From: a virus
Strand: one strand, 5' to 3'
Length of the DNA: 28,133 bases
Virus record (IMG/VR): IMGVR_UViG_3300029319_000365
Location: 1-28,133 of that record
Part shown: positions 1-25,584 of the stretch, piece by piece
Position numbering within the stretch: position 1 is the stretch's first letter
Layout: each line of letters opens with the position of its first letter
Notes under the pieces: generated by a model
The model's database searches: none
The model's input: the letters and a program-made list of their open reading frames with translations, nothing else
Told to the model about the DNA's origin: nothing
Program-made: the position numbers and the translations under genes

Positions 1-70
1 CATTTGAGGAGTTTCCTTCTCCACGTAGCGACGAGAGCTTCTCTCTCATCTTGTCTAAGTTAATACCCAT
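1..70 (-). CDS. N-terminus of a phage protein, possibly gp32-like ssDNA-binding protein (partial)
   Basis: An ATG at 68-70 (minus strand) opens 23 codons that run off the left edge of the window. The peptide begins MGINLDKMREKLSSLRGEGN. A good Shine-Dalgarno sequence (AGGAGATAAAA directly before ATG) supports the start, and the gene follows the tubulin-like gene by about 30 nt. Short N-termini of the type M-x-I-x-L-D-K-x-R-x-K-L-x-x-L are familiar from gp32-type single-stranded DNA-binding proteins of divergent T4-like phages, and a neighbouring polymerase gene fits that idea. With only 23 residues visible, the function is a guess; the existence of a coding start is much better supported. Confidence 0.65.
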   Translation of the reverse strand, partial: MGINLDKMREKLSSLRGEGNSSN

Positions 71-95: not shown

Positions 96-119
96 ACGAT
101 CAGCTAATATCCTGATCGT
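96..119 (-). other. 8-bp inverted repeat over the stop codon of the tubulin-like gene
   Basis: ACGATCAG (96-103) and CTGATCGT (112-119) are perfect inverted repeats with an 8-nt loop. On the coding strand this forms a hairpin spanning the last codons and the TGA stop of the tubulin-like gene, about 25 nt before the next start codon. No U-run follows, so it is not a standard intrinsic terminator. It could be an mRNA-stability or processing hairpin, or chance. Confidence 0.35.
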
Positions 120-963
120 CTAGCAATTCACCATAGGATTGTACCATAGATGAATATTTAATGCAATAACAATATTTCTGTTCGTAACTTGTCTCGAACA
201 CGCCATACGAAATGCTGGTTCCTTCTTCAATCTTTGACTTAACAAAGTGGTTGATACGTCTGAAGAGTGTTCCGTCATTCTTTAGGTCGTCCTTGCCGAT
301 ACCATAGTAATATACCACATCACGAGCGGCTGTCAAGTCGTAAAACCAATTTTCTTTTTCCTCTTCCTCGTCGTCACCCAAGACAACAACTCCCACTGTA
401 GCGATACGAGAGATCTCGCTTGGGTGCGTGAAGCTGCCAATCACTGGCTCGCTGTTCTCAAAAACGTTAATCATGTGAATCGTGTTAACGATCGCCTGGT
501 TTAGGGTGTCATAGTATCCCACAATAGAGACGTCGCCTATGCTCTTCTCTAGTTGCAGGTTATCGATTAAGTAAATTCTCTCTAGTAGTCCGGACCGAGC
601 ATACTCCTGTAGCACATTGCGCACAATACGCTCTTGCATTTTCTGAGTTTCGCTCATCAGGGCTAAGTCAGGCTGAATGTAGACAACTCGAAGATTGTTA
701 CCCTGTAGTTGTTCTAGAAGATTCAGGATGCCTCCGGAAACATTACCGGAACCACACGTTATTACCAATGTATCCTCGCCTTTAAACTTAAGCTTCCTCT
801 TTAGGTTTGGAAAGTTTGCATCGTACTCTTCGTGAGACTTCTTAGCCTTAATGGTGATATCTGCGTCCTTAGCTGTATCGATACCGTATGTCGTATACTG
901 CGGGAATTTTGCAAACGCACTTGCGATGTTGCACCCTGCTTTTCCTAGACCCACTACAATCAC
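100..963 (-). CDS. FtsZ/tubulin-like GTPase-fold protein
   Basis: A 287-aa protein that looks like a very divergent member of the tubulin/FtsZ superfamily. The N-terminus has a G-x-G-x-x-G-C-N loop (GLGKAGCN, residues 5-12) after a beta strand, as in FtsZ. Residues 71-78 (GSGNVSGG) sit where the GGGTG(S/T)G phosphate-binding signature is expected and are a degenerate version. Residues 134-165 (IDNLQLEKSIGD... to the helix with LNQAIVNTI) match the layout of the FtsZ IPNxxLL strand and following helix. The region where the NxDxxD catalytic T7 loop should lie (about 170-185, VIGSFTHPSEIS) lacks it. The protein is shorter than bacterial FtsZ. The start is GTG at 961-963, overlapping the upstream TGA by 4 nt, so translation is probably coupled. 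Phage tubulins (PhuZ, TubZ) position DNA or capsids; the role here is unknown. A Rossmann-fold NAD(P)-type protein is the main alternative. Confidence 0.6.
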   Translation of the reverse strand: MIVVGLGKAGCNIASAFAKFPQYTTYGIDTAKDADITIKAKKSHEEYDANFPNLKRKLKFKGEDTLVITCGSGNVSGGILNLLEQLQGNNLRVVYIQPDLALMSETQKMQERIVRNVLQEYARSGLLERIYLIDNLQLEKSIGDVSIVGYYDTLNQAIVNTIHMINVFENSEPVIGSFTHPSEISRIATVGVVVLGDDEEEEKENWFYDLTAARDVVYYYGIGKDDLKNDGTLFRRINHFVKSKIEEGTSISYGVFETSYEQKYCYCIKYSSMVQSYGELLDDQDIS

Positions 964-1277
964 TTTTCAATCACCCAACTAAGCACAGTACCGTCGTTAA
1001 ATCCCCCCTTAGTGATGCGTTTGGCTGTGCTGTTCGCCATAATCTGGGAATCTCTAATCTCATAAAGATCACAGAGGAAGTGAAAGATCTCCATGACATC
1101 GCCGGCCTCTTCGGGACATGGATCTTTGAGGAACTCCTCAATCTCTTCTCGAAGCTTCTTGCTGGCATAGTTTTTCAATATATCACCATCTACCGTGTGA
1201 CATATGCAGTTCTTCCCAGATTCTTCAATAATCTGTGGGATCTTGTCTCTCACCAGTTTATTATAAAATTTCTTCAT
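960..1277 (-). CDS. MazG-like nucleotide pyrophosphohydrolase
   Basis: A 105-aa all-alpha NTP pyrophosphatase of the phosphoribosyl-ATP pyrophosphohydrolase-like (COG4997-type) group. The N-terminus YNKLVRDKIPQII is typical of this group. The metal-binding helices show E-x-x-E (E44/E45 to E47/E48) followed by E57-x-x-D60, the ExxE...ExxD signature that binds Mg2+ and the triphosphate. A conserved K-G-G-F (residues 90-93) lies near the C-terminus. Enzymes of this type hydrolyse (d)NTPs to monophosphate and pyrophosphate, and in phages are thought to alter nucleotide pools or alarmone levels; the substrate cannot be told from sequence. ATG at 1275-1277 overlaps the polymerase stop (ATGA), and its own stop overlaps the next GTG (GTGA). 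The three genes therefore form one tightly coupled cassette. Confidence 0.85.
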   Translation of the reverse strand: MKKFYNKLVRDKIPQIIEESGKNCICHTVDGDILKNYASKKLREEIEEFLKDPCPEEAGDVMEIFHFLCDLYEIRDSQIMANSTAKRITKGGFNDGTVLSWVIEK

Positions 1278-2461
1278 AGCTTCAATTCTTTCATCTGTCC
1301 GAGGTTGCGGCCGGCAGAGACGTTAACCTTGAACGCATCATAGCGCGTATTCCTGAAGGTGTCAAGCACATTCAGTAAATCATAACGATCCTCTTCAGCG
1401 AGGTCAATATATACAGCGTCGTGAATAAGAAATGCGATGTTGCTCTTTCTCCCCTTCAAAAGCTCGTAGACCTTGTAAGCCTGCTCGTGCACCATGTCAA
1501 TTGTGGTGCTTTGAATGATGTAATTGAGCGAATGATGCTCGTCCACATTCTCCATTATTCTACCATAATCTGTCTTAATTTTGAAGCCATCCCAGTACTT
1601 ATTTCGCACAAAATCCTTGCTATACAATCGCTCTAAGTCCTTATTTTCATTACTAGAATAGAGCCATGCAAAAGTCTTTACCTTGGCCTCATCACGAGTT
1701 AGCGAGTCACCAAAAACGTTCTTCACATTCCAGTCATGAATGTCGTTTTGGGGCTGCTCTTGCTCCGAAAGTGCCAAAAGTACTCGAAGCTCTGCGGCAT
1801 TGAAATCAAGCTCTACAAGCCAATCATTGTTGGGTTTTACGCAGGAGCGAAACTCTTTGCCCATCGTCAAAATTGGGAAACTGTTGGGATTTGTTGATAG
1901 GCGCCCAGTCACCGTCCCCCAGGGGTTATAGTCACACACATGGCGCACACTCTTGAGGGTGCGATGAAAGTTTTGGCCCTTAACTGACCCGAGCAAATGC
2001 TTAATCGGATTAATGTCGATGTTTAGTGGTTGCGATGCGATCTTACTTGTCATCACAATCACTTCATACATGCGCTCATAGTTTTCTGGTCGAGGGAAAT
2101 TCTCTAGCACATGTGCCGTGATCTTGTTTTTGGTGTCGAGATACTGATACAGGAAGTACTCCGGGACCAGATCATAAAAGCAGTTTTCCTCCATCGAGAG
2201 GCGCGAAGTGTTGAAGGCCTTGAGAGACGCTCTGAGCGTCTTTTTTATCTTTTCCCAGTCCTCCTTCGTATCTTCCGGACAAACGTCTGTAAGAGTCGCT
2301 CCTTGGCTGTAAATGCGTGCCAGCTCGTACTGGTCACCCCGTAGGTGCGGCGAGTAGTCCCAGGTGCTCCCCTCAGGCGGCAATTGGTGTTCTGGATATA
2401 TCATCTTGTTGGCGTAGTAGCCGACACAATCCGCCTTAGCGTCTAGAACTTGAAAAAGCAA
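1274..2461 (-). CDS. Family A DNA polymerase, polymerase domain only
   Basis: A 395-aa protein carrying only the thumb/palm/fingers of a PolA-type polymerase. Visible motifs: the T-x-TGRLS...P stretch (183-196); motif A ELDFNAAELR with catalytic D219; motif B R256-x3-K260-x3-F264-x3-Y268, with exactly the spacing of E. coli Pol I R754/K758/F762/Y766; the N-x-x-I-Q segment (313-317); and motif C with H347-D348. The usual glutamate after HD is A349. There is no 3'-5' exonuclease or 5' nuclease domain, so proofreading, if any, must come from another gene. The distances A to B (about 37 residues) and B to C (about 88) are shorter than in Pol I, so the fingers are compact. The start is TTG at 2459-2461, supported by AGGAGG 4 nt upstream. 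T4 itself uses family B gp43, so this is a different replication strategy. A split PolA is, to my knowledge, reported for Rhodothermus phage RM378. Confidence 0.9.
   Translation of the reverse strand: MLFQVLDAKADCVGYYANKMIYPEHQLPPEGSTWDYSPHLRGDQYELARIYSQGATLTDVCPEDTKEDWEKIKKTLRASLKAFNTSRLSMEENCFYDLVPEYFLYQYLDTKNKITAHVLENFPRPENYERMYEVIVMTSKIASQPLNIDINPIKHLLGSVKGQNFHRTLKSVRHVCDYNPWGTVTGRLSTNPNSFPILTMGKEFRSCVKPNNDWLVELDFNAAELRVLLALSEQEQPQNDIHDWNVKNVFGDSLTRDEAKVKTFAWLYSSNENKDLERLYSKDFVRNKYWDGFKIKTDYGRIMENVDEHHSLNYIIQSTTIDMVHEQAYKVYELLKGRKSNIAFLIHDAVYIDLAEEDRYDLLNVLDTFRNTRYDAFKVNVSAGRNLGQMKELKL
2222..2246 (+). terminator. Antisense intrinsic-terminator-like hairpin inside the polymerase gene
   Basis: On the plus strand AGACGCT (2225-2231), loop CTG and AGCGTCT (2235-2241) are followed by TTTTT (2242-2246), with further G-U/A-U pairs extending the stem. 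This is the form of an intrinsic terminator for transcription running against the gene. It lies within coding sequence, so it may be chance. Confidence 0.3.
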
Positions 2462-23124: not shown

Positions 23125-25056
23125 TTAGTAGATGAACCAATTGGACCCATCAGTGTACACTAAAACTGAGCCATAGGGCGATTCAAGAATAACAGATGGA
23201 GCGCCATCAATCTTCTGGGAGCCGGCCGGATTGAGAGTAATCGCTTTATTGGAAGCAGCCGCACCGGATTCATCTTTAACTAATAATACTTGACCTGCTG
23301 TAAATGTCGACGCATCAAACAAGATACTTGAAGGGACATGGGTTACTCCTAATATATAATTAGCCGAAGAGGCGGTGTGACTAGCTGATACAGGAACGCG
23401 ATTATGAACGAGCCCTGAGTTTATAGTCACCCGATTATTAGATGTGTCATAAGCCACATTGGAACTTCCACTAATTTCTCTCCCAATGGGAGAATCAAAC
23501 CTAAACTGGAGTGAACCTACCGGGCCATCAGCTACCTCGATAGCGCTAGCGGTAACGTTAGTGAGATATCGGCCGTCTCCATAGAAATAGGTCGCAGACA
23601 CATTGGACGAAGCACTAACGGTCCCCACCACTGAAAGCGTATTGCTTGAAGTGAGGTAGCGAAGATTTGAACTACCAGAAATCTTTCCATCGTCCGAGAA
23701 GTAATACTGAAGATCCCCCATGCTGCCTTGGGCGCGGGCGACGTTAACGAGGTGCCTTCCGTCTCCGTAATACAAACTGGAGGACATGAAAGATGAACAA
23801 GTAATGTTGTGCCACAATGAAGTATCAGCCAAGATGGTGCTTGCAGAAATTTGAGTTGTAGATACAATATTCGGCAGGTATGCCAGACTAGCCGTGATGT
23901 CGCCGGCCAATAAACAACTTGCAGAAATACTTGTGTCCCCAGAGCCATCAACGTCACCCATGCTTGCTATGACCCCGTTGCCATTCGCCGTGTCATGAAT
24001 TTCAATAGCGCCAGCAATCTTAAGTGGTGATCCGCCGACAAGTATGCCCTTAACAGTAAGGTCGCCTGCTACCATAACATCCGCCGAGGCTGACACACTG
24101 CCAATCACAGCCAACTCATGAGAGGGGCTTGTTGTGCCGACACCCACTTTGCCGGCCACAGCAACATTTCCAGCATAAAAAGAATTGGCCGAGGCCGAAA
24201 CCGCACCTACAACCGTCAGCGCATGAGAGGGAGCATCCGTACCAATACCCAGAAAGCCGCTAGATGTCAAAAAAGTAAGATTGGCGCTTCCCGTAAATGC
24301 CCCTGAGCCTTTTTGAATCTGGATAGAACCAGTGGGACCGGTGGCATTCTGCGAGGTAGCCGTAATCGTTATTCCACCCCCAGAACCTCCATCTGTTATT
24401 TCAATGCCGGTTCCACCTGTCAGCACTCTTTCGTTTGGAAGTTTGGCTTCGGAAGCTACAGTAATATATGTAGCATTGAGGGGGGGATATGGTGCTGCCC
24501 TGGGCGCAGGGTTGCTGGCCCCTGAGTCCTTCTGGTCTTTAACCGCCGGGCGATCAATACCGGGCATAACCCTAAAGACGCCTTGGCGGGCGCGGACACA
24601 CTCCGCGCTAACCTGGAACTTATGTTCTACTTGGCCAAATAGAAACCGAGTATCGTTATAGAGTTTAACGATCTCATAAAAGATTTCACCATACTGGACA
24701 AAGTCTCCCACTCTCACATAGAGGTCCTGGTCCTCTACAAGTCGACGTCGATGAAAGTTAACTGTTAGTTTGGTCTGATATTCGTAGCCATATCTTTCAT
24801 TGGACTGTTCGTTCTCGACCTCAACATATGCAAACACCCGTACAGGTGGTAAAGAAACCTTTTCTTTCGCCTCACCATAGATATCATTAAAGTTCGACTC
24901 TTCAATACTGATCGGATAGTAGGCTATCGTCTGACCAAGGACTCTTTCCGCCAGCTCGTCGTTAACCTGCTTTACAAGATTGCGTTCCTTCTCGCCAAAG
25001 AACATTGGCGCTGGTGGTGCAGCCGGTCTAGTCCATTTGTTTTTTGGATCTGCCAT
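23125..25056 (-). CDS. Neck-like domain fused to a repetitive fibre domain
   Basis: A 643-aa two-part protein. Residues 1-165 are a close paralogue of the neighbouring 171-aa protein: shared blocks include F-F-G-x-x-E-R-x-L-V-K-Q-V-N-D-E-L-A-E-R-V, R-R-R-L-V-E-D-Q-D-L-Y-V-R and G-Q-V-E-H-K-F-Q-V-S-A-E-C-V-R-A-R. Residues about 190-560 are Ser/Gly/Ala-rich fibre sequence with recurring V-G-[AT]-V-S-A-S and Y-x-Y-G-D-G-R-[HY]-L-x-N-V units. The C-terminal 60 residues (K-I-D-G-A-P-S-V-I-L-E-S-P-Y-G-S) match the end of the 644-aa protein. The first domain probably anchors the fibre to the virion neck, so the product may be a collar or whisker-like fibre. The start ATG (25054-25056) has AGGAGAACGC upstream. 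The role of the first domain is inferred from a resemblance to T4 gp14 layout. Confidence 0.8.
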   Translation of the reverse strand: MADPKNKWTRPAAPPAPMFFGEKERNLVKQVNDELAERVLGQTIAYYPISIEESNFNDIYGEAKEKVSLPPVRVFAYVEVENEQSNERYGYEYQTKLTVNFHRRRLVEDQDLYVRVGDFVQYGEIFYEIVKLYNDTRFLFGQVEHKFQVSAECVRARQGVFRVMPGIDRPAVKDQKDSGASNPAPRAAPYPPLNATYITVASEAKLPNERVLTGGTGIEITDGGSGGGITITATSQNATGPTGSIQIQKGSGAFTGSANLTFLTSSGFLGIGTDAPSHALTVVGAVSASANSFYAGNVAVAGKVGVGTTSPSHELAVIGSVSASADVMVAGDLTVKGILVGGSPLKIAGAIEIHDTANGNGVIASMGDVDGSGDTSISASCLLAGDITASLAYLPNIVSTTQISASTILADTSLWHNITCSSFMSSSLYYGDGRHLVNVARAQGSMGDLQYYFSDDGKISGSSNLRYLTSSNTLSVVGTVSASSNVSATYFYGDGRYLTNVTASAIEVADGPVGSLQFRFDSPIGREISGSSNVAYDTSNNRVTINSGLVHNRVPVSASHTASSANYILGVTHVPSSILFDASTFTAGQVLLVKDESGAAASNKAITLNPAGSQKIDGAPSVILESPYGSVLVYTDGSNWFIY

Positions 25057-25068
25057 TCATGCGTTCTC

Positions 25069-25584
25069 CTACGAAGGTCTCGTTACGGCTTCTTTAACCC
25101 TAAATAGGCCGCGGCGTGCACGAACACACTCAGCGCTTACCTGAAACTTGTGTTCAACTTGCCCAAAGTAGTATCTGGTATCGTTGTAAATGCGCACAAT
25201 TTCATAAAATAGTTCGCCATATTGAATAAAATCCCCAGGTCTTACGTACAGGTCCTGATCTTCGACCAAGCGGCGTCGATTGAAATTGACTGTCAGGTTG
25301 GTGGTATAGTCATAACCGAACTTCTCATTTGTCTGTTCGTTATCTACCAGCACATAAGCGTATACTCGAACTGGGGGTAGTGTAACTTTATCTATCGCCT
25401 CGCCGTAAGTGTTATTAAAATGCGTATCTTCAAGGTCTACAGCGTAATAAGCAATGGCTTGGCCAACAACGCGCTCGGCCAGTTCATCGTTGACTTGCTT
25501 TACTAGGTCTCGCTCATTTTTCCCAAAAAACATGGGTGGCGGAGGGGCCTCCGGCTGGTTCCACTTATTTTTAGGATCTGACAT
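25069..25584 (-). CDS. Possible head-closure/neck protein (gp14-like layout)
   Basis: A 171-aa protein with the order Y-Y-A-V-D-L-E (about 46-52), N-N-T-Y-G-E, an A-Y-V strand, F-G-Y-D-Y, N-L-T-V-N-F-N-R-R-R-L, R-P-G-D-F-I-Q-Y-G-E-L-F-Y-E-I and Y-Y-F-G-Q. T4 gp14, as I recall it, has the same order (C-Y-Y-V-P-R-E, the I-F-G-E-D segment, a beta strand, E-G-D-L-I-Y-F, the L-F-E-I strand and F-Y-Q-L-G). The protein is therefore a candidate for the gp14-type neck component that closes the filled head. A close paralogue fused to a fibre follows it after 12 nt. It is shorter than T4 gp14 (256 aa). ATG (25582-25584) is preceded by GGAGAAGTAAGA. The gp14 link needs a structural comparison; the gene itself is certain. 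Confidence 0.75.
   Translation of the reverse strand: MSDPKNKWNQPEAPPPPMFFGKNERDLVKQVNDELAERVVGQAIAYYAVDLEDTHFNNTYGEAIDKVTLPPVRVYAYVLVDNEQTNEKFGYDYTTNLTVNFNRRRLVEDQDLYVRPGDFIQYGELFYEIVRIYNDTRYYFGQVEHKFQVSAECVRARRGLFRVKEAVTRPS

Follow-up and report, generated by a model that had tools for sequence, protein, structure and literature searches.

A predicted tubulin/FtsZ-fold protein without the T7 catalytic motif in the replication gene cluster of one Far-T4 phage clade

The viral DNA studied here (IMG/VR record IMGVR_UViG_3300029319_000365; 28,133 nucleotides, referred to throughout as the window) opens on a run of minus-strand genes in which a divergent tubulin-like protein is encoded between a family-A DNA polymerase and a gp32-type SSB (Table 1). 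The GTG start of the tubulin-fold gene overlaps the stop of the preceding small open reading frame (ORF), whose N-terminus we take to resemble MazG/PRA-pyrophosphohydrolase; no HMM assignment was obtained for this ORF. The polymerase ORF has a TTG start, contains motifs A, B and C, and shows no exonuclease domain. A full-length relative of the truncated SSB, found in another contig (L008, MGINLEKMREKLSSLRGDGNSSNDTFWRP...), matches annotated phage SSBs. Elsewhere in the window, two adjoining minus-strand ORFs (23125-25056 and 25069-25584) have very similar N-terminal regions of about 150 residues, with the pattern MxDPKNKWxxPxAPPxPMFFGxxERxLVKQVNDELAERVxGQ, and are an apparent tandem duplication.

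Table 1. Position of the tubulin-fold gene, its sequence features and its neighbours in the window. Residue numbers refer to the tubulin-fold protein.
Feature	Position	Strand	Basis and remarks
gp32-type SSB gene start (MGINLDKMREKLSSLRGEGNSSN...)	1..70	-	Cut by window edge
Tubulin/FtsZ-fold gene	100..963	-	287 aa, GTG start; ORF list, relatives, models, dN/dS; core gene of Far-T4 clade
Clade-specific C-terminal tail LLDDQDIS (residues 280-287)	103..126	-	LDDQ[DE]I in most of the window's clade, absent from the divergent clade
T7/H8 replacement segment NSEPVIGSFTHPSEISR (residues 170-186)	406..456	-	No NxDxx[D/E], no helix H8; highly variable except R186 (98%)
H7 core helix (residues 150-169)	457..516	-	Y150/Y151, N155, invariant H163-M164; DSSP of model, E. 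coli FtsZ alignment, conservation
N135, preceding H7 at end of strand 6	559-561	-	Opposite E. coli FtsZ N165
Family-specific invariant QEYARS (residues 119-124), end of H5	592..609	-	Q119, Y121, R123, S124 in 51/51 clusters
T4-like loop GSGNVSGG (residues 71-78)	730..753	-	Aligns with GGGTGTG; G71, G73, S76, G77 kept, central TG lost
Region of deleted FtsZ T3 loop (residues 30-64), between strand 2 and strand 4	772..876	-	hhalign gap opposite FtsZ T3
T1-like nucleotide loop GLGKAGCN (residues 5-12)	928..951	-	Aligns with FtsZ T1; G5, G7, G10 in 92-96% of 51 clusters
Small ORF between polA and tubulin-fold gene	960..1277	-	105 residues, N-terminus NKLVRDKIP; 4-nt overlap with tubulin-fold gene; overlaps polymerase ORF
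Family-A DNA polymerase	1274..2461	-	395 aa; PF00476 1e-15, phrog_17 5e-19

Relatives of the tubulin-fold protein are numerous in uncultured viruses. The first scan of IMG/VR confirmed 108, and two further scans confirmed at least 574 and at least 597 viral relatives. The family is under purifying selection, with a median dN/dS of 0.084 and a maximum of 0.20 among 98 close pairs, and as a core gene it persists among members that are only about 40% identical. No relative was found in cultured phages or plasmids (50,697 phage records and 72,556 plasmids searched), nor in a cellular genome collection scanned by two short motifs, a search that reaches only motif-bearing relatives; Pfam, NCBIfam and PHROGs gave no confident assignment of the protein. 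Conservation is reported below for 184 family members where motifs are concerned and for 51 sequence clusters where single residue columns are concerned. The acidic tail of the window protein (LDDQ[DE]I[SG], residues 280-287) recalls, in its position, the C-terminal peptides of FtsZ and SSB.

The genomic position of the gene is fixed. Among 192 loci, the upstream neighbour is either polA (55 loci) or the MazG-like gene (120 loci) in all 175 that could be tested, and the downstream neighbour is the SSB gene in 185 of 185 testable loci. Beyond SSB there usually follow uvsX, a 5'-3' exonuclease, a DnaB/gp41-type helicase and ribonucleotide reductase. A separate scan with the polymerase as query found the tubulin-fold gene downstream in 66/66 testable polA loci. 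Much of the divergent clade has no MazG-like gene at this place, and in loci without it the tubulin-fold gene frequently overlaps the polymerase stop or lies directly against it. Each of five contigs of 112-194 kb carries a single copy of the tubulin-fold gene. A search of 16 contigs with PF00091 for a second tubulin in the same phages gave no match above the cut-off, with 13 of 14 controls detected; this result excludes only canonical second copies, since PF00091 also misses the tubulin-fold family itself (3 of 31 members match, with E 0.018 at best, short of the cut-off).

The major capsid and tail genes identify the carrier. Its gp23 matches phrog_138 at 6e-70, and the best matches of its tail sheath are Microcystis phage Mel-JY01, LR756508, Flavobacterium phage immuto and Rhodothermus phage RM378; by these matches the carrier is a Far-T4 phage. 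In Mel-JY01, immuto and the uncultured phage LR756508 the order polymerase-x-SSB-RecA-exonuclease-helicase is kept, and slot x holds unrelated small or acidic proteins, with no tubulin-fold gene. As these sister modules have other proteins in the slot, the tubulin-fold gene is a clade-specific gain or replacement, and the module as such does not depend on it. The Mel-JY01 slot before SSB (52405-53691; 8406-9692 of contig L192) encodes a 428-aa hypothetical protein whose sequence is unrelated to the tubulin-fold protein and whose tail is charged and rich in proline. Replication modules are described in the Far-T4 genome paper, with no tubulin or FtsZ (PMC4360716), and later accounts describe Far-T4 phages as widespread in aquatic environments and tied to Bacteroidetes/Flavobacteriales, with the tubulin-fold gene unmentioned (PMC7198788, PMC13037479). 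None of the papers searched mentions 'Far-T4' and 'FtsZ' together.

A further 77 IMG/VR contigs (L208-L284) carry FtsZ-like genes, most of them about 50% identical to bacterial FtsZ and some with an intact NxDFAD; these could be phage-borne FtsZ or host contamination. We considered whether an evolutionary intermediate might lie among them and rejected this, as none of the available flanks contains Far-T4 replication genes.

AlphaFold2, supplied with a 31-sequence alignment, modelled the window protein with a pLDDT of 89.7 and a pTM of 0.89, and DSSP analysis of the model shows the tubulin strand-helix order, a 20-residue H7 helix (150-169) and a C-terminal domain. Foldseek searches of the PDB with this model matched FtsZ and TubZ at E 1e-12 to 1e-10, with FtsZ at the top, and VIA-align gave a Z of 24.3 and an rmsd of 3.1 over 258 aligned residues for CetZ (3zid), and Z values of about 21-22 for FtsZ, TubZ and tubulin. 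The independent model of a divergent member (L079, 42% identical) reached a pLDDT of 94.1 and matched CetZ at Z 24.8 over 259 residues. The two divergent models both match CetZ, FtsZ, TubZ and tubulin over their whole length (Z 21-24.8), and the assignment to this fold is thus well founded; the modelling confirms a predicted protein of the tubulin/FtsZ superfamily built from a Rossmann-like N-terminal domain, the core helix H7 and a C-terminal domain.

At the level of sequence, homology to the tubulin/FtsZ superfamily is weak but real. A phmmer search of the PDB with the single window sequence found CetZ2 (4b45) at E 0.004, and the family profile scored 37.4 against the FtsZ profile (P = 2e-4), compared with at most 19.6 for 40 column-shuffled FtsZ profiles, 16.7 for a reversed profile and 18.8 for polA; PDB profile searches with the family alignments found nothing. 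The commonest Pfam match in the family is TrkA_N, which covers only residues 2-34 of the window protein and has a best E of 1e-4 in one member. A plain Rossmann/TrkA-N dehydrogenase is rejected because the fold searches match tubulin/FtsZ over the whole length. The preliminary description of this gene had read a tubulin/FtsZ fold from the N-terminal GLGKAGCN loop, the degenerate GSGNVSGG signature and the strand-helix order around IDN. All three are present (residues 5-12, 71-78, and 133-135 followed by helix H6), and the proposed fold is borne out by both models, with their H7 helix and C-terminal domain, by the fold searches, and by a profile score above its controls.

The nucleotide-binding side of this fold is largely kept. 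Across the 184 members the T1 loop is mostly GLGxAGC[NAS] and the T4 loop mostly G[AS]GxI[ST]G[GA]; against the signature GGGTG[TS]G, T4 retains positions 1, 3, 6 and 7, with 2, 4 and 5 altered. In the profile alignment, from which all residue equivalences to FtsZ are taken rather than from structural superposition, Y150/Y151 stand opposite A181/F182 of E. coli FtsZ and N155 opposite N186. In FtsZ and tubulin, the positions of N165, F182 and N186 (E. coli FtsZ numbering) are guanine-base contacts. The corresponding residues are highly conserved among the 51 clusters (N135 in 94%, Y150 in 92% and N155 in 96%). With T1, T4 and the equivalents of the guanine contacts kept, binding of a guanine nucleotide has most likely been retained. 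One divergent member (L186, 10001-10822) has lost two of these equivalents, N135 being replaced by I and N155 by Y, and nucleotide binding may therefore not be universal in the family.

The elements that sense and cleave the gamma-phosphate tell a different story. The T3 loop is the gamma-phosphate sensor in FtsZ and tubulin; the profile alignment indicates that this loop, GLGAGAN in FtsZ, is deleted, with a similar length across the whole family. The region retains a family motif of its own, HEEY (44-47), with E45 and Y47 in 96% of clusters. The motif NxDxx[D/E] is described as the FtsZ hydrolysis motif (PMC12583498), and its D209 and D212 are invariant in the nine FtsZs compared (9/9). Between residues 165 and 195 it occurs in 0/184 members, none of which has N at the first position; its absence is thus family-wide, as the preliminary description had supposed for the window protein. 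Helix H8, which follows T7, is absent from the models of both the window protein and L079. The T3 deletion and the loss of H8 extend what had been described before. Since T3, the T7 catalytic motif and H8 are all gone, we infer that the protein should not hydrolyse GTP on assembly or show dynamic instability.

The loss of the T7 motif carries one qualification. In the phmmer alignment PSE183I stands opposite TSEV of CetZ2 (4b45), which sets E183 against the T7 glutamate, and column 183 is acidic in 130/184 members. E183 may accordingly be the last acid of the motif, a possible catalytic residue surviving in the window protein with some residual activity, although it is not conserved: in many other members this column is P, V, G, N or K. 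Elsewhere the family has conserved residues of its own; the best conserved are QEYxRS at the end of H5, H163-M164-N166 in H7, R186, Y218 and Y220, which, judged by topology, probably sit on the T7 side of H7. An active GTPase with a re-wired site could be built from these, with E183, or R123, H163 and R186, replacing the two aspartates and driving a dynamic cytomotive filament. The near invariance of Q119, R123, H163, R186 and Y218 would suit such a site. We consider it quite unlikely nonetheless, as no acid column within residues 169-186 exceeds 76% of clusters and the gamma-phosphate loop is absent.

We tentatively favour, at somewhat less than an even chance, the reading that this is a new tubulin/FtsZ-fold family from which GTP cycling has been removed, core to one Far-T4 clade and acting as a fixed scaffold in phage DNA replication. 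In the predicted structure the nucleotide-binding domain is present together with H7 and the C-terminal domain; a guanine nucleotide would be bound with no GTP cycle run, and the protein, whether monomeric or assembled into a short static polymer, would be the scaffold on which replication proteins or the replicating DNA are held. The place of the gene among those for polymerase, SSB, recombinase, exonuclease and helicase makes this the likeliest role, and both the role and the oligomeric state are guessed from that context. The more specific version, a GTPase-dead core replication protein in which the guanine nucleotide has become a fixed structural ligand and which holds together polymerase, SSB or replicating DNA, is possible but doubtful.

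Work on phage PhuZ bears on whether such a scaffold would polymerise. When the T7 loop of PhuZ is disabled, filaments continue to form, but they are non-dynamic and phage DNA is mispositioned (PMC7950403). A PhuZ-like motor role is therefore unlikely for the present protein. A static or slow filament, in which a head-to-tail polymer like those of FtsZ, TubZ and PhuZ would anchor or position replicating DNA without dynamic instability, agrees with the same observation, with the full tubulin fold including H7, and with the conserved nucleotide side. It is nevertheless unlikely in our estimation: conservation is poor across the T7/H8 face, which in known filaments provides the lower half of the longitudinal contact, H8 is missing from both models and T3 is deleted. 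The variability of this face likewise weakens the polymer version of the scaffold.

The same combination of a kept guanine pocket and a varying assembly face would fit a protein that does not polymerise at all, a nucleotide-binding regulator or enzyme, for instance one that senses (d)GTP or a related nucleotide and works alongside the polymerase, the MazG-like protein and ribonucleotide reductase; genes of nucleotide metabolism are indeed its neighbours. We know of no tubulin-fold enzyme of this kind, however, and the MazG-like gene is not adjacent in much of the divergent clade, so that we regard this explanation as distinctly improbable.

The preliminary description had also suggested a host-division inhibitor, here a protein that would poison FtsZ. 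The protein has the FtsZ fold, and FtsZ inhibitors are known from other groups of phages, but its identity to FtsZ is only about 12-16%, and the T7/H8 face with which it would dock on FtsZ is its most variable part. A strict place in the replication module, as a single-copy core gene, fits poorly with such a function, which we hold to be extremely improbable. The division inhibitor is the part of the earlier interpretation that is not supported; its reading of the fold, the degenerate nucleotide loop, the loss of T7, the T4-like phage type and the setting beside a polymerase is, and the literature we found describes no such setting for PhuZ or TubZ.

The tubulin-fold proteins known so far are for the most part filaments driven by GTP. 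In this large, conserved viral family the fold and the guanine pocket have been retained, the loops for sensing and cutting have been lost, and the gene is locked into a replication cluster. A part in replication would take the tubulin fold beyond the cytoskeleton; should the protein still polymerise, the family would offer a direct test of whether phage DNA organisation needs GTP hydrolysis.

Comparison with the known systems places the family apart from each of them. CetZ (3zid, 4b45, 4b46) is the closest solved fold, with Z 24.3/24.8 and an rmsd of about 3 over some 260 residues; it is an archaeal FtsZ-like GTPase with T3, the T7 glutamate and H8, whereas the present family is viral and lacks T3, NxDxx[D/E] and H8. 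FtsZ shares the fold and the E. coli guanine contacts N165, F182 and N186 as equivalents; the phage protein is shorter, has neither D209/D212 nor the T3 loop GLGAGAN, and lies outside a division gene context. TubZ, a partition GTPase of plasmids and prophages that works with TubR and centromeres, is again alike in fold (Z 22-23), but the conserved neighbours of the tubulin-fold gene are polA/mazG and SSB. PhuZ (phiKZ gp39, 201phi2-1) is likewise a phage-encoded tubulin fold of large tailed phages; it is a T7-dependent dynamic GTPase of nucleus-forming jumbo phages whose assembly is driven by a long C-terminal helix (PMC7950403). The present protein has a short tail and no catalytic motif, and its gene is placed between those for polA and SSB. 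Its model ends in an 8-residue helix (275-282) and a low-confidence tail in place of the long PhuZ-type helix, and the divergent clade has almost no C-terminal tail. Single-sequence searches of six long contigs, made without a positive control, gave no match to phiKZ gp54 (chimallin) or gp39 (PhuZ). The best viral fold match is A0A6J5RW92, an 'FtsZ' of an uncultured Caudovirales phage in BFVD (TM 0.76-0.77 of the query, E 1e-11 to 2e-12), which differs in its length of 452 aa and is 12-16% identical, the comparison being one of fold. The family represents a new, lineage-wide form of the tubulin fold and does not belong to the PhuZ, TubZ, CetZ or FtsZ families.
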